A DNA stretch of 47,831 nt from Acidobacteriota bacterium (GTDB lineage: Bacteria; Acidobacteriota; Vicinamibacteria; Vicinamibacterales; CAVVIG01). The stretch lies in contig QHWJ01000353.1 of assembly GCA_003222535.1 (NCBI GenBank), forward strand, positions 1 through 47,831, given 5' to 3'. Every line of letters begins with the position of its first letter. Position 1 is the first letter of the stretch. Shown piece by piece: positions 2,151 through 8,961 of the stretch. The notes beneath the pieces were generated by a model. The model was not told the origin of the DNA. It made no database searches and saw only the letters and a list, made by a program, of their open reading frames with translations. A program made the translations under genes and the position numbers.

Positions 2151-3539
<1,389 letters not shown>

Positions 3540-3552
3540 CGCCAGCCAACAA

Positions 3553-3570
3553 CTTGACCTTTCGGCCAAG
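3553..3570. terminator. Inverted repeat after the response regulator gene
   Basis: CTTGACCTTTCGGCCAAG forms a 7-base stem with one mismatch and a 4-base loop, 13 bases after the regulator stop codon. No clear T-run follows. It could be a weak terminator or an activator-binding site for the following promoter; the sequence does not decide which. Confidence 0.35.
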
Positions 3571-3645
3571 TCGTTGCCCTCTCTCCATAATCCTCTGATT
3601 TCGCACAACTAACGCGCCGGCGATGGCGGCCACTGGCGAGTCCGC

Positions 3646-3661
3646 GGGCAAACGCTTGCCC
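3646..3661. promoter_or_regulatory. Candidate enhancer site for the sigma-54 activator
   Basis: GGGCAAACGCTTGCCC is a perfect 6-base inverted repeat with a 4-base spacer. It lies about 120 bases upstream of the candidate -24/-12 promoter. NtrC-type activators bind dyad sites of this size at such distances. The gap holds no gene, which fits a control region. The assignment rests on position and symmetry only. Confidence 0.4.
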
Positions 3662-3780: not shown

Positions 3781-3796
3781 TGGAATACGCGTTGCA
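3781..3796 (+). promoter_or_regulatory. Candidate sigma-54 (-24/-12) promoter
   Basis: TGGAATACGCGTTGCA has the invariant GG at 3782-3783 and GC at 3794-3795 with exactly 10 bases between, as sigma-54 promoters require. The TTGCA block at -12 is a full match; the -24 block is TGGAA rather than TGGCA. Transcription would begin near 3807, about 52 bases before the chosen maturase start. It lies directly downstream of a sigma-54 activator gene, which greatly strengthens the call. Confidence 0.65.
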
Positions 3797-3858: not shown

Positions 3859-5277
3859 ATGCAACCTTCAATGTTCAACCTTCGTGTGCCGCTCGAAGGC
3901 GGCGACGAAGTGTTTCTGATGAACACGCTCACCGATGCGCAGCTCGTCGTCTCGACCGACGTGGCCGCGCTGCTGGATCGGGCAGCGAAGGGCGAGTTCG
4001 TGGGGACGGCGATGGCGAGCCCGCCGGACGACAGCGAACGGCAGGCGTGGGATGTGCTGCTCGAAAATGGTTTTCTGGTCGAGAATCGCGCGAGCGATCG
4101 CCGCGCGCTCGACGACTACCTCACCGGCGTCAAGAGCAGCACCGAGGAGCTCAACGTCACGCTGCTGACCACCCTGCAGTGCAATTTTGCCTGCGACTAT
4201 TGTTTCCAGGGGGATCACGGCGACTACAACCTCCACGCGGACAAGATGTCGCTTGAAACGGCCGGCCGCGTGGGCGACTGGCTCGAACGAGAGCTCGATC
4301 GCGTCCGACCGGAACGGTTCGTGTTCACGTTCTTCGGCGGAGAGCCGTTGCTCAATCTGCCGGTGATGTACCTGCTGGCCGAGCGGATGTGGAACGCGAC
4401 CGAGTCGCGCGGCGTGTCGATGTTCGTGAACATCATCACCAACGGCCTGCTGCTCACGCCGGCCGTCGTCGACCGGATGCTGCCGTACGGGTTGAACGGG
4501 ATCAAGATCACGCTCGACGGCGATCACGACACGCACAACCGCATGCGTCCGCTGCGGGGCGGCCAGGGGACCTTCGACCGCATCGTCGAAAACATCCGGC
4601 GCGTGGCCGGCCGGTGCCGGATCTCGATCGGCGGCAACTTCGACGAGAGCTCCGTGGACAGCTACCCGGCGCTGCTCGACTTCCTCAAGGAACAGGATTT
4701 CGCGGACAAGCTGGTCAAGGTCAACTTCAAGCCAATCATCCGCGCGGAACCTCTGCAGCCGAAAGGGATTATCCCGTTGACGCCGGTAGGGGCGTCCAGG
4801 AAACCGTTGAACGGCACGTGTATGACGTCGGCCGGCGCGGGCCACGGGTCGACGTGCGACAGTTGCGATTTCCTCGACGACAAGATGTCGTTTCTGCGCG
4901 ATGAGACCAGGCGCCACGGCTTCACGCCGCACGACGGCGTGCACAACGGTCCCTGCCACGTGCACATGCAGCACGCGCACACGATCGGCCCGGACGGATC
5001 GCTCTATCCGTGCCCGGGCTTCACCGGCCAGCTTGCGACGTCGACCGGCCACGTCGACGATCGAAGCGAACCGGTTCGCGAGGCGGCCCGGCTCAAGTTC
5101 GATCGGCTCGACCCCTGGAAGGAATGCGGCGACTGCGCGTTCATCCCCGTATGTGCCGGCGGATGCGTAGCGAACTCGCACACCCAGCTTGGCGACATGA
5201 ATCTGCCGACATGTCACAAGCGGAGCTTCGAATCGGCACTCATCTCGCTGGCGCATACCGCGGCCAGCGCAGCGTAG
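3859..5277 (+). CDS. Radical SAM/SPASM peptide maturase
   Basis: This protein of about 472 residues is a radical S-adenosylmethionine enzyme of the type that installs cross-links or other changes in ribosomal peptides. The [4Fe-4S]-SAM motif is CNFACDYC (Cys108, Cys112, Cys115), followed by the glycine-rich motif FFGGEP. The C-terminal SPASM domain is complete: Cys366-X13-G-X4-Cys385, then CX2CX5CX3C from Cys423 to Cys436, then a final Cys. This matches the two-auxiliary-cluster layout. The N-terminal 95 residues (FNLRVPLEGGDEVFLMNTL) may handle the substrate. I chose ATG 3859, but GTG 3838 and ATG 3871 are possible. The next gene, 9 bases on, encodes a 30-residue peptide, its likely substrate. 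Anaerobic sulfatase maturases share the fold, but no sulfatase is near. Confidence 0.92.
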   Translation: MQPSMFNLRVPLEGGDEVFLMNTLTDAQLVVSTDVAALLDRAAKGEFVGTAMASPPDDSERQAWDVLLENGFLVENRASDRRALDDYLTGVKSSTEELNVTLLTTLQCNFACDYCFQGDHGDYNLHADKMSLETAGRVGDWLERELDRVRPERFVFTFFGGEPLLNLPVMYLLAERMWNATESRGVSMFVNIITNGLLLTPAVVDRMLPYGLNGIKITLDGDHDTHNRMRPLRGGQGTFDRIVENIRRVAGRCRISIGGNFDESSVDSYPALLDFLKEQDFADKLVKVNFKPIIRAEPLQPKGIIPLTPVGASRKPLNGTCMTSAGAGHGSTCDSCDFLDDKMSFLRDETRRHGFTPHDGVHNGPCHVHMQHAHTIGPDGSLYPCPGFTGQLATSTGHVDDRSEPVREAARLKFDRLDPWKECGDCAFIPVCAGGCVANSHTQLGDMNLPTCHKRSFESALISLAHTAASAA

Positions 5278-5286
5278 GAGACTACA

Positions 5287-5379
5287 ATGAAGATCAAGAT
5301 CGTGAAGAAGGCCTCGAATGTCAAGCCGAGCGGTTTCTGCATTAGCTGGGTGGACGACCCGCCGATGAACAAGAAGTAA
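5287..5379 (+). CDS. Putative RiPP precursor peptide (30 aa)
   Basis: A 30-codon frame runs from ATG 5287 to TAA 5377-5379. It follows GGAG at 5277-5280 with a 6-base spacer, and the maturase stop is only 9 bases upstream. The first half is basic (MKIKIVKKASNVK); the second half carries PSGFCISWVDDPPMNKK, with single Cys18, Trp21, Asp23, Asp24 and a Pro-Pro. Proximity to a complete SPASM maturase, the strong ribosome site and the residues usually targeted by such enzymes make it a likely substrate. No Gly-Gly leader, signal peptide or obvious cleavage site is seen, so the whole peptide may be kept. I do not recognise the family. The modification (thioether, C-C bond, epimerisation or other) cannot be read from the sequence. 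Confidence 0.75.
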   Translation: MKIKIVKKASNVKPSGFCISWVDDPPMNKK

Positions 5380-5391
5380 CAAGAAGTAGCG

Positions 5392-6906
5392 ATGGGCAAT
5401 TTGGGCGGCAAGGTCCGCAGACAGTTGACGGTCAGAGGGTGGCTTGCGCTTCTTTGCGCAGCCACAACTGTCGTCAGCGCTTGCCGCAAACCAAACGACG
5501 ACCATGTCGCTTCGACCCGGCGTGCAACGCTGAACGTCGGCGCTGCACAGTTGACGCCCGACAGTCCGATTGCAGGGCTCCGGCAATTGAGTCAGCTGCT
5601 TGCGCTGGAAGGCCTGGCCCGGGCCGGCGACGACGGGCGCATGCAGCCGTGGTTGGCGGAATCGTGGACATCACCAGATGATGGCCGCTCCGTCGTGGTG
5701 AAGCTGAAGCCGGTAGTGAAATTCCAAGATGGCGAGCCGTTCGATGCCGGGACGGCGGCGCGATTGCTCCCAGACACTTTGCGCTCGTTCATGGGGTCCC
5801 TGGCTGGGGAGGTCGTCTCGATCACACCGGTCAATCCGACAACTGTCGCGATTCAGTTCCGGCAGAGGTCTCCGTTCCTGATTGAGGCGCTGGAGGCCAC
5901 TATCCGGAAGCCAGGCCCGGCGATGATCGGCACCGGACCGTTCATGATCGAAGGCAACTCGACCACCGATCTGCGAGCGAATCATTCGTACTATCTGGGC
6001 GCTCCAGCGATCGAACGAATCACGGTTTCGAACCACGCGAGCGTCCGAACAGCCTGGGCAGAAATGCTTCGGAACCGGTTGGATATGTTGTGGGAAGTCG
6101 GTTCAGATGCCCTTGATTCGATGAAGAATTCGAGCAGCATTTCGCTGTTCACCTATACTCGCCACTACCAGCACGTCATCGCCTTCAACACGCAATCGGC
6201 TGCGCTGCGATCGCCCGAAATTCGCCGGGGATTGAATTTCGCAGTGGACCGAGCCACTGTCGTGCATTCCGCGCTGCGTGACAATGGTATTCCCTCCTCA
6301 GGGCCGATATCACCTCGACACTGGGCGTTTCCGCCTGATGCTCAGCAATTTGACTTCGATGCGCGACAAGCCGCCGGCCTTTTAGCCAGGGGGCGACGGA
6401 AGAGCGACGGTATCCACTTCACCTGTCTTGTTCCACCAGACTCGATCGATGAGCGCATTGCGCTGGAAGTGAAGCGAGAACTGGCAGTGCTCGGAGTCGA
6501 TATGGCCGTCGAAGAAGCGTCGCGCGACGAAATCGTCACGCGAGCCGCGAACCAGCGGTACGAGGCGGTCATGACCGAGGTGATCAGCGGGCCGACGCTG
6601 TTCCGTCAATACCTCGTATGGCATACAAAGAGCCCATCCAACTGGGGCCACTTCGGAAACGCGACGATCGACGGCTCGCTCGATGAGGTGCGACAGGCGC
6701 CTGACGAGGCTGCTTATCGCACAGCCGCGGCTCATTTACAGCGTGCCTTCATGGATGATCCTCCCGCCATTTTCCTGGCGTGGTCCGTACGCGCGCGGGC
6801 GATCAGCAAGCGATTTGCGGTCGAGGCAGAAGAAGGCCGCGATGAGCTGAGCACTATCCGGCTCTGGAAACCTGTGAATATTGAGCCGCGGGCGAGCCAC
6901 AACTGA
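5392..6906 (+). CDS. Family 5 extracellular solute-binding lipoprotein
   Basis: This 504-residue protein resembles the peptide/nickel-binding (SBP family 5) components of ABC importers. It has a lipoprotein signal: basic start, hydrophobic stretch WLALLCAATTVVSA and lipobox VSAC with Cys31. Family segments follow, such as MQPWLAESWTSPDDGRS, VVKFQDGEPFDAGTAARLL and GLNFAVDRATVV. It begins 12 bases after the peptide gene and ends one base before the kinase start. No permease or ATPase genes are present, so it may serve as a periplasmic receptor that presents a ligand to the kinase rather than as a transporter part. Sensing of the mature peptide is an inference. Confidence 0.88.
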   Translation: MGNLGGKVRRQLTVRGWLALLCAATTVVSACRKPNDDHVASTRRATLNVGAAQLTPDSPIAGLRQLSQLLALEGLARAGDDGRMQPWLAESWTSPDDGRSVVVKLKPVVKFQDGEPFDAGTAARLLPDTLRSFMGSLAGEVVSITPVNPTTVAIQFRQRSPFLIEALEATIRKPGPAMIGTGPFMIEGNSTTDLRANHSYYLGAPAIERITVSNHASVRTAWAEMLRNRLDMLWEVGSDALDSMKNSSSISLFTYTRHYQHVIAFNTQSAALRSPEIRRGLNFAVDRATVVHSALRDNGIPSSGPISPRHWAFPPDAQQFDFDARQAAGLLARGRRKSDGIHFTCLVPPDSIDERIALEVKRELAVLGVDMAVEEASRDEIVTRAANQRYEAVMTEVISGPTLFRQYLVWHTKSPSNWGHFGNATIDGSLDEVRQAPDEAAYRTAAAHLQRAFMDDPPAIFLAWSVRARAISKRFAVEAEEGRDELSTIRLWKPVNIEPRASHN

Positions 6907-6907
6907 C

Positions 6908-8671
6908 ATGGCTCTCAGGATCCGGCGCATCGCCACCCGCTTCGCGCTGCTCCTCGGCATAGCCGCCGTCGTGCCGCTCGTCGCATACGGCGCCGTCTCG
7001 ATCCTCTCGCTCCGGCGCGGCACGCGCGAATCGGTCGTCAACGGCAACCAGAACGTCGCGGTCCGCGCCGCCGAAGAAATCCGCCGCTACGTCGTCACCA
7101 ACGCCGAGCTGCTGAAGGCGCTTGCCGCCGATCTCCAGGACACCGGCCTCGACACCCGCCAGCAGGATCAAATCCTCAAGAACTACGTGCTGCAGTTCCG
7201 CGAGTTCCGCGAGATCACGCTGTTCGACGAGCACGGCGCGATGGTCGCGTCGAGCCGCGTCGGCAAGCCGCGCGTTGCGATTCCCAAAGACGCCCCGCTG
7301 ACGATCAACGGCGTCTCGATGTCGCCCATCCGCGTCGACGAAGATCTGCTGCCGACGTCCGTGTTCGCCATCCGGCTCACCCGCCTGAACCAGCCGTCGG
7401 GCTGGCTTGCCGGCGAGTTCAGCCTCGAAGAAATGTGGCGGATGGTCGACCAGATCCGGATCGGCGACCACGGCTTCGCGATGGTCGTCGCCCCCGGCGG
7501 CGAGCTCATCGCGCACGGCGATCCCGACAAGAAAGCGCTTGTCGCCCAGACACGCAGCATGAGCGGCCACCCGCTGTTCGCCGCTGCGCGAACGCGCCAG
7601 GACGCCACGCCCGTCTCTCAGGAGTACACAGGAGAAGACGGCCGCAGCCAGCTCGGCGTCGCCGCGCGCATCGCGCAACTGGGCTGGACCGTCATCGTCG
7701 AGCAGCCTACGCGCGAGGCGTACGCGAACGCCACCGTGCTCCAGCGGCAGCTCGTCGTCGCGATCTCGTTCGCGCTGCTGGTCATGATCGCGGTCGGCTA
7801 TCTCTTCGGCCGGAGCTTCATCAACCCAATCCTCGCGCTGCAGCGGGGCACGCACGACATCGCTGCCGGACAGCTCGAGGCCCGCGTCGACATTCGCCGG
7901 GACGACGAGCTCGGAGGCCTGGGCGAGGCCTTCAACACCATGGCCGATCGCCTCGTCAAGCTGCAGGACGACGTGAAGCGTCAGGAGCGGCAGGCGATGT
8001 TCGGACGCGTCGCCGCCGGTCTGGTCCACGACCTGTCGCACCCGATCCAGAACATCGGAAACAGCACGCGGCTGCTGCTCCGCGACGATGCCGATGCGGC
8101 GTCGCGCGACATGTTCCGCCGCACGATCGAGCGCGAGCTCGAGACCCTGAAGCGCTTCATGGACGACCTGCGCAACGTCGTGAAGCCGAAGCCGATCGAG
8201 CGCTTCCCGATGGAGGTCAACGGCTCGGTCGCCGAAATCGTGGACGTGATGCGCCCCGAAGGCGAGCGCAACGACGTCGCCGTCGAAACGCAGTACGCGC
8301 AGGGCCCGCTCGTCATCAACGGCGATCGATTCGCGCTCGGACGCGTCTACCGCAATCTGATCAGCAACGCCATCCAGGCGACCGAACCCGGCGGCCGTGT
8401 GACCATCTCGACCGCCCGCGTCGGCGACCAGGTCCGGATCGACGTCGCTGACACGGGATCCGGCATCCCGCCCGACCGGCTCCCGGCGATCTTCGACGAC
8501 TTCGTCACGACCAAACGCCGGGGCCTCGGCCTCGGCCTCGCCATCTCCAAGCGCATCGTCGAACAGCTCGATGGCACGATCACCGTCGTGAGCGAGGTCG
8601 GACGCGGCACGGCATTCACGCTGCGCTTTCCGGCCCGCGACGAAGGGTCGGCACGCGCGGCTGCAAGTTGA
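6908..8671 (+). CDS. Membrane sensor histidine kinase (dCache-HAMP-HisKA)
   Basis: This 587-residue kinase has a first membrane helix near residues 12-34, a large periplasmic region of dCache type and a second helix near 280-303. A HAMP segment (NPILALQRGTHDIAAGQ) follows, then the H-box LVHDLSHPIQ with His374, and an ATPase domain with N-box NLISNAIQAT, G1 DTGSGIPPDRL and G2 RRGLGLGLAISKRI. Length and order are normal. ATG 6908 sits one base after the lipoprotein stop, so translation is probably coupled; a TTG at 6881 would lengthen it by nine residues. Its probable partner is the sigma-54 regulator at 2151-3539. Confidence 0.93.
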   Translation: MALRIRRIATRFALLLGIAAVVPLVAYGAVSILSLRRGTRESVVNGNQNVAVRAAEEIRRYVVTNAELLKALAADLQDTGLDTRQQDQILKNYVLQFREFREITLFDEHGAMVASSRVGKPRVAIPKDAPLTINGVSMSPIRVDEDLLPTSVFAIRLTRLNQPSGWLAGEFSLEEMWRMVDQIRIGDHGFAMVVAPGGELIAHGDPDKKALVAQTRSMSGHPLFAAARTRQDATPVSQEYTGEDGRSQLGVAARIAQLGWTVIVEQPTREAYANATVLQRQLVVAISFALLVMIAVGYLFGRSFINPILALQRGTHDIAAGQLEARVDIRRDDELGGLGEAFNTMADRLVKLQDDVKRQERQAMFGRVAAGLVHDLSHPIQNIGNSTRLLLRDDADAASRDMFRRTIERELETLKRFMDDLRNVVKPKPIERFPMEVNGSVAEIVDVMRPEGERNDVAVETQYAQGPLVINGDRFALGRVYRNLISNAIQATEPGGRVTISTARVGDQVRIDVADTGSGIPPDRLPAIFDDFVTTKRRGLGLGLAISKRIVEQLDGTITVVSEVGRGTAFTLRFPARDEGSARAAAS

Positions 8672-8712: not shown

Positions 8713-8961
8713 ATGGAAATGTTCCGTACGCTCGTAAAGACCGACGCGCTGGCCGTCGAGAACAGGATGGTGGCAGTGCGATACTTCGAGCTGCGCACGC
8801 TGCGCGGCGCGCGGCGCTACAGCGCCGAGATTCTGCTGGGACCGGGAGATCGGATCATCCTGGACGACGACTCGGTGACCAACCTTGAAGCCCGAACGAC
8901 GTGTCTGGTGCCGGCGACGCTTCACAGCCGGATGCTGGCGCGCGCGGTCGCAGCGGCGTAA
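8713..8961 (+). CDS. Small hypothetical protein (82 aa)
   Basis: This 82-residue soluble protein begins MEMFRTLVKTDALAVENRMV at ATG 8713, directly after GGAGGAG (8704-8710), a very strong ribosome site. The sequence alternates beta-like stretches (AVRYFELRTLRGARRYSAEILLGPGDRIIL) and has no signal or membrane segment. I do not recognise the family. It follows the kinase by 41 bases with a palindromic repeat between, so it may be read from the same transcript or from its own promoter. The strong ribosome site and good codon pattern support it as real. Confidence 0.6.
   Translation: MEMFRTLVKTDALAVENRMVAVRYFELRTLRGARRYSAEILLGPGDRIILDDDSVTNLEARTTCLVPATLHSRMLARAVAAA

Follow-up and report, generated by a model that had tools for sequence, protein, structure and literature searches.

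By sequence comparison, the 30-codon frame directly downstream of a radical SAM/SPASM peptide maturase gene in an Acidobacteriota bacterium is a real gene tied to the maturase, and its product is almost certainly the maturase substrate. The two genes were found in contig QHWJ01000353.1 (GenBank assembly GCA_003222535.1; the whole stretch of 47,831 nucleotides that was analysed is called the window below). A response regulator gene with a sigma-54 promoter lies before them, and genes for a substrate-binding lipoprotein and a histidine kinase follow. The best explanation of this arrangement is that regulator, sigma-54 promoter, maturase, peptide, binding lipoprotein and kinase make up one functional unit (Table 1).

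Table 1. Features of the maturase and peptide unit (positions in the window; +, forward strand).
Feature	Position	Strand	Basis
NtrC-type response regulator (receiver, sigma-54 activator with GAFTGA, Fis-type HTH)	2151..3539	+	Pfam Response_reg, Sigma54_activat, HTH_8
Inverted repeat GCCAACAACTTGAC, candidate regulator site 1	3545..3558	.	matches GNCAAN4TTGNC
Inverted repeat GCCAAGTCGTTGCC, candidate regulator site 2, 20 bases after site 1	3565..3578	.	
Inverted repeat GGCAAACGCTTGCC, candidate regulator site 3	3647..3660	.	
Sigma-54 (-24/-12) promoter TGGAATACGCGTTGCA	3781..3796	+	strict site in 49/61 loci
Radical SAM/SPASM peptide maturase, 472 aa	3859..5277	+	Radical_SAM and SPASM TIGR04085 profile matches
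AGGAG, ribosome-binding site of the peptide gene	5276..5280	+	sequence
Precursor peptide MKIKIVKKASNVKPSGFCISWVDDPPMNKK, 30 codons	5287..5379	+	homologues in 61/63 testable genomes; median pN/pS 0.31
Codons of the conserved segment Cys to Cys+5 (CISWVD)	5338..5355	+	Cys 69/69, Asp/Glu at Cys+5 64/69
Family-5 extracellular substrate-binding lipoprotein	5392..6906	+	PF00496 140 bits; lipobox
Membrane histidine kinase (dCache, HAMP, HisKA, HATPase)	6908..8671	+	Pfam

The peptide gene and its conservation

A sequence-only reading of this DNA had described a complete SPASM maturase followed 9 bases later by a 30-codon frame with a good ribosome-binding site, and both genes were confirmed (Table 1). 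A search for such frames downstream of homologous maturases found an intact homologous Cys frame in 61 of the 63 carrier genomes with readable DNA at this place. Three carriers (G026, G005 and G506) were excluded from the 63; their contigs end at the maturase. Fifty-nine of the 61 genomes were identified by script. They yielded 69 frames, since seven genomes have two copies and one has four. Two more genomes were added: G017, in which the frame leaves its contig after the Cys, and G514, in which the frame is 56 residues long. Two carriers have a broken peptide gene, with two in-frame stop codons in G024 and a deletion in G462.

The peptide consensus is MKIxVVKKxxxxxKPxxFCPWxVDxPPxxKK. The Cys is present in all 69 frames, an invariance that is partly by construction because the search script required a Cys. 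It is followed by Pro at Cys+1 in 54 frames, Trp or Phe at Cys+2 in 56, Val or Ile at Cys+4 in 56 and Asp or Glu at Cys+5 in 64. The five most interesting loci among those without a plain script match (L238, L241, L254, L038 and L067) were read by eye, and in none of them does an intact Cys-less frame replace the normal peptide. The DNA beyond the maturase at L241 is 99 bases long and contains no peptide; this locus belongs to G477, which has two maturase loci on separate contigs (C97 and C198) and was counted via the other one. The pN/pS ratio was calculated for pairs of equal length with no more than 40% residue differences, tandem copies within a genome included. It was below 1 in 58 of 58 pairs (median 0.31, maximum at most 0.79), which shows conservation of the frame at the protein level. 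In the peptide, the basic MKIxVVKK part would serve as leader and the C-terminal part around the Cys as core.

Variation in copy number and in neighbouring frames was also seen. In G515 (L248) four near-identical tandem peptide genes follow the maturase with a spacing of 162 bases, and two copies are present in seven other genomes. Up to four tandem copies fit a product made in quantity. Two loci, L231 (G435) and L057 (G049), have an extra short Cys-less frame between the maturase and the normal peptide. It reads ...TGTLRPWLVDV... and is core-like, with Arg replacing Cys.

Gene order, distribution and losses

A neighbour survey was carried out on 67 loci from 66 carrier genomes. The conserved order is NtrC-type regulator, maturase, peptide, family-5 binding lipoprotein and dCache histidine kinase. 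Among loci with enough DNA, the regulator is upstream of the maturase in 57 of 57 (in one at 3.2 kb), the binding protein is downstream in 56 of 56 and the kinase in 50 of 50. The parts of a two-component system with sigma-54 output are all found, namely the kinase, the NtrC-type regulator with GAFTGA and the -24/-12 promoter, and from their position the kinase and the regulator of the unit presumably pair with each other. The gap between the peptide frame and the binding-protein gene is 12 bases in the window and hundreds of bases in many loci. No exporter or protease gene was found in the unit, and in the window no permease gene stands beside the binding protein, the next gene being that of the kinase. 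The regulator, binding protein and kinase that flank the maturase and peptide belong to the same unit and were not mentioned in the earlier reading. After the kinase in the window, a small gene (8713-8961) without a Pfam match occupies a place where most loci of the window's family that reach that far have a homologue with 71-90% identity. At L067 (G017:C298), two partial copies of the C-terminal part of the regulator lie between the regulator and the maturase.

The maturase was found in 35 of the 60 closest relatives. Within the order Vicinamibacterales 66 of 162 genomes have it, and in a phylum-wide sample 19 of 396 do, all 19 belonging to that order (the window's own genome is counted in each set). 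The maturase-less set consists of the 25 genomes in which the first search gave no maturase. The kinase is missing in 21 of them. In G002, G023 and G037 it sits at a contig edge, so the maturase may only be unassembled there. The locus in G021 keeps the regulator, a remnant peptide (MKKIVTIKKAPTQAKPQGISPIYLDDVPATRKSPH) with Ser in place of the Cys, and a kinase gene broken into two frames; neither the maturase nor the binding protein was found there. Ser for Cys is what is expected if the Cys is kept for the maturase and the maturase is gone, though as one case it is no proof. The regulator gene remains in 10 of the 25 maturase-less genomes and must therefore have other work too.

A counterpart in Nitrospirota

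The same gene order was found in a Nitrospirota locus (L154). Its maturase is 32% identical to that of the window, its peptide has 23 residues, and its binding protein and kinase, again of the family-5 and dCache types, are 25% and 38% identical. In a sample of 295 Nitrospirota genomes, 19 match the L154 maturase at 1e-55 and eight of these are close. Peptide and binding protein are both present in 7 of 7 close loci with readable DNA (of the eight), the kinase in 6 of 6 loci of sufficient length, and a sigma-54 site (TGGTATYN4TTGC) in 5 of 8. The peptides end in CTFLIG, CLFMIW, CQFWLT, CMFFIM, CPVFIR, CTWFVG and CPWFIH, exactly five residues past the Cys. Two of the loci have a TonB-dependent receptor upstream of the maturase, identified by Pfam in L283 and by eye in L285; in L283 a regulator 57% identical to that of the window stands before the receptor. 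It was concluded from these comparisons that four genes (maturase, peptide, binding protein and kinase) keep together in a second phylum.

The remaining eleven Nitrospirota genomes form a different group, two members of which score 532 and 562 bits as geopeptide maturases (TIGR04280). In the tree, the Acidobacteria, Nitrospirota and geopeptide maturases are three fully supported groups with no supported order among them. Short upstream precursors with a CC core, e.g., MEKRIVILKKGMEKKELLQGFCCAGAFIPLMI, were seen in 10 of 12 Nitrospirota geopeptide-type loci (L268-L279), and the 1.1-1.5 kb examined downstream of the 12 maturases contained no binding-protein homologue. Homologues of the partner genes (binding protein, kinase, regulator) were not found at E 1e-4 in the DNA examined around 59 more distant maturases (L155-L213).

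The maturase and the putative modification

The maturase matches Radical_SAM in Pfam with 60.9 bits (cut-off 29.5) and SPASM TIGR04085 with 47.9 bits (cut-off 27). Its ATG is supported by a conserved start, mostly MQPSxFN, in 21 aligned Acidobacteria homologues. Invariant in the same 21 are the radical SAM Cys residues of CX3CX2C (C108/112/115) and the seven-Cys SPASM set (C366, C385, C423, C426, C432, C436 and C452). Outside these sets, Cys 321, 333 and 336 (C-X11-C-X2-C) are also invariant; the insert that bears them is shorter in Nitrospirota, and they possibly form an extra metal site.

The best curated full-length family of the window maturase is TIGR04280, the geopeptide maturase, with 238.6 bits against a curated cut-off of 400. 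Other members score in the same range (242.6 for L035, 256.7 and 292.1 for two Nitrospirota members). Against the PapB model NF047865 the window maturase reaches 128.8 bits, below the cut-off of 340, and a PapB-family protein from Paenibacillus reaches 434. The profile scores indicate that the maturase is kin to the geopeptide and PapB maturases and falls below both curated cut-offs.

The predicted maturase structure has a pLDDT of 71.8 and a pTM of 0.74. The closest solved structures are TigE (8vpo, Z 21.3) and 5wgg/5why (Z 20.9), both aligned across almost the whole protein; the same Z of 20.9 was reached, over a shorter stretch, by an anaerobic sulfatase maturase. The best PDB match by sequence is 5wgg, whose entry title mentions thioether bond formation. 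We take 5wgg/5why to be CteB. Both CteB and TigE are only about 14-18% identical to the window maturase and their substrates differ. As regards a possible N-terminal leader-binding (RRE-like) domain, residues 7-93 form three strands and then helices in the model of the whole protein, and the TigE and CteB structural alignments begin at maturase residue 1 or 4.

The putative modification is likely a thioether from the conserved Cys to a residue a few places on, with Cys+5 as the first candidate. PapB forms its link between Cys and the carbon adjacent to a carboxylate, tolerates Cys-Xn-Asp for n = 0-6 and has an essential Arg, Arg372, near the substrate carboxylate (PMC9413430). Cys-X4-Asp/Glu, found in 64 of 69 Acidobacteria frames, fits this acceptor pattern, and a PapB-like Cys-Asp link is possible in most Acidobacteria. 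As a universal rule such a link was rejected: the residue at Cys+5 is Ser, Cys, Ala or Thr in family f5 (5 frames), and in the Nitrospirota peptides this position is the last. A rule that might unify the two phyla is that the link goes to the Cys+5 carbon next to a carboxylate, which in Nitrospirota would be supplied by the chain end; f5 speaks against it. The Arg in YPCQRF of the Paenibacillus PapB-family protein, which may or may not be PapB Arg372, is not kept here, where the stretch reads YPCPGF or YKCAGF. The PapB/freyrasin ranthipeptides (NF047865) have in common with the unit a SPASM maturase and, with 64 of the 69 frames, Cys-Xn-Asp/Glu; they have six motifs, whereas here there is one, and in f5 and Nitrospirota Cys+5 is non-acidic.

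The proposal of the sequence-only reading that the peptide is a maturase substrate is supported by its conservation and by the frame being kept beside the maturase. Two outcomes had been named there as refuting, a lack of the downstream frame beside homologous maturases and a lack of protein-level conservation; both were checked and neither was seen. Its family had not been recognised in that reading either, and searches gave the same outcome: no NCBIfam model was reached and the Pfam search returned a chance-level match alone (E 0.26). The further claim of a new RiPP family needs the qualifier that the maturase is related to TIGR04280, below its cut-off, and that the leaders are of a similar KK(G) type. 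The best reading is that the peptide represents a new RiPP precursor family whose maturase is related to known ones but distinct. One paper (PMC8692599) deals with other Acidobacteria clusters.

Two other accounts of the gene pair were weighed against this reading. The unit could be a geopeptide system that the curated model scores too low, given that TIGR04280 is the best curated model (238.6 bits) and that geopeptides are short peptides with a similar IVxLKKG-type leader beside a related SPASM maturase. However, the cut-off of 400 is unmet, compared with 532 and 562 bits for the two geopeptide-type maturases, and the window's group is a clade of its own, separate from the geopeptide maturases. 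Geopeptide precursors lie upstream and have a CC core (10 of 12 loci), while the peptide here lies downstream and has a single Cys, mostly followed by Pro. The window unit also has a binding protein, a kinase and a sigma-54 promoter, unlike the geopeptide system, in which the 1.1-1.5 kb downstream lacked a binding-protein homologue. We consider this account very improbable. Equally hard to sustain is the idea that the small frame is a leader frame which aids translation of the next gene and is no substrate. It is prompted by the position of the frame directly before the binding-protein gene, 12 bases away in the window, but in many loci that gene is hundreds of bases away. Residue-level conservation with purifying selection, the tandem copies, and the loss of the Cys in G021, the one genome that lost the maturase, all argue against it.

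Promoter and upstream repeats

A strict sigma-54 site precedes the maturase in 49 of 61 loci, compared with 1.5 expected from shuffled DNA and 2 in the reversed control; 12 loci are without it. Inverted repeats of the form GNCAAN4TTGNC were found at 65 sites in 39 of the 61 maturase upstream regions, with 22 regions lacking a strict repeat. They are paired 20-21 bases apart in several loci, and in several one repeat lies about 98 bases before the promoter. A composite repeat-promoter pattern occurred 10 times in 28 genomes, 8 times at the maturase, and its reversed pattern 5 times. The window's own repeat-to-promoter spacing, 120, is outside the range of 85-115 that was searched, and the window is therefore missing from these 8. 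It is very probable, as judged from promoter and repeat sequences and from the GAFTGA loop of the regulator, that the NtrC-type regulator drives the unit.

Single repeats are not enriched in the window's own genome (78 forward matches vs 127 for the reversed pattern). Paired repeats gave 31 forward matches over 60 genomes vs 3 for the reversed control, an excess that makes other regulator targets possible; seven genomes have such a pair at the maturase and one (G012) beside the regulator. No consistent promoter or neighbour was found at paired repeats in 12 loci inspected. Another motif, GTCAATnnTTTGTCCATGACAAA, makes up some of the repeat pairs; it lies beside MerR-type regulator genes in L297 (G003) and L302 (G040), and similar matches also occur in G001, G005 and G029. 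In eight genomes that lack the unit (L101-L108), no GNCAAN4TTGNC repeat was found within 450 bases downstream of the regulator gene, and one of the eight has a promoter-like match after the regulator. In G021 one repeat and a sigma-54-like match are retained after the regulator.

A possible sensing role of the unit

The arrangement of the unit suggests that the peptide is a self-sensed signal with positive feedback. The modified product would reach the periplasm or the exterior, with export and proteolysis supplied by genes elsewhere, and would be bound there by the family-5 lipoprotein. The loaded lipoprotein would be read by the dCache kinase. The kinase would phosphorylate the NtrC-type regulator, which would bind the GNCAAN4TTGNC repeats and fire the sigma-54 promoter to switch the operon on. 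The sensing loop itself appears probable. For the whole chain, in which a maturase-modified peptide is bound by its own lipoprotein and relayed via kinase and regulator to its own operon, we consider that the balance tips somewhat in its favor. Set against the chain are the lack of an exporter or protease in the unit and of any output other than self-activation, the other work and possible other targets of the regulator, and the absence of promoter or repeat in some loci. The repeat and sigma-54-like match kept in G021, the broken peptide genes of G024 and G462, the low p of control pairs in the co-variation runs and the frames without Asp/Glu at Cys+5 also count against it.

A lipoprotein signal was detected in the binding protein of 34 of 58 loci under a strict rule, the window included. 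In all 53 loci compared, the binding protein is less conserved than both the maturase and the kinase (its median identity to the window protein is 33%, that of the maturase 62% and that of the kinase 54%), as expected of a protein following a changing ligand. Co-variation was analysed in two partial Mantel runs of 45 and 39 loci. Peptide core and binding protein gave a partial r of 0.20 and 0.29, the highest value of the core in both runs, and controls (core vs kinase domain, 0.15 and 0.18; leader vs kinase sensor, 0.29) also reached low p. Leader vs maturase was significant in the first run and not in the second. Co-variation as proof of recognition was rejected, control pairs reaching similar values; that of core and binding protein favors sensing in a suggestive way only.

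Two alternatives to self-sensing concern what the lipoprotein binds. The product may be a metal-binding or scavenging compound, in which case binding protein and kinase would detect the returning complex in the manner of metallophore uptake and no cell-to-cell signal would be involved. Nickel and metal-opine binders are among the best curated matches of the binding protein, the peptide has a conserved Cys, and two Nitrospirota loci have the TonB-dependent receptor upstream of the maturase. Yet the peptide has one Cys without another invariant metal ligand, the binding protein has no adjoining permease, and in Acidobacteria no TonB receptor was noticed between regulator and maturase, a gap of less than 900 bases in 59 of 61 loci. 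This alternative seems unlikely to us. The same low probability is given to the suggestion that the ligand sensed by binding protein, kinase and regulator is an unrelated environmental one, and that they switch on a peptide with another job, as an antimicrobial or a cofactor. Family-5 binding proteins are generally known to bind many ligands, and regulators of biosynthetic clusters often respond to outside cues. Binding protein and kinase, however, share a gene run with the peptide in two phyla, and no immunity or export gene was seen in the unit. The binding protein is also the fastest-diverging member, and its distances agree best, if weakly, with those of the peptide core.

Self-sensing of the modified peptide could be stated more narrowly as a Gram-negative pheromone system, a version that we put forward only tentatively and regard as rather doubtful. 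In this version the maturase would join the Cys to the carbon adjoining a carboxylate five positions further along, and the resulting small macrocycle would be bound by the dedicated lipoprotein and reported to its own operon via the kinase and the sigma-54 regulator. The carboxylate would be the Asp/Glu side chain in most Acidobacteria and the chain's own end in Nitrospirota. The agr autoinducing peptides have one Cys followed by a few hydrophobic residues and are paired with a histidine kinase. The likeness of the agr system to the window unit is in working only: the latter differs in its radical SAM maturase, interposed binding lipoprotein and sigma-54 output, and a Pfam scan of six window proteins contained no AgrB-type protease.

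In the open-access literature (preprints not covered), we found no description of such a peptide signalling system or of a maturase peptide in this sensory setting. Such short precursor genes readily escape notice; in this case one seems to be the heart of a five-gene unit, which is carried by 66 of 162 genomes from a soil order with few cultured members. If the loop is true, it would be a peptide signalling system for Acidobacteria and Nitrospirota, and it would offer a matched ligand and receptor, a reporter promoter already in place, and cores whose natural variation could be used to probe what such maturases tolerate.
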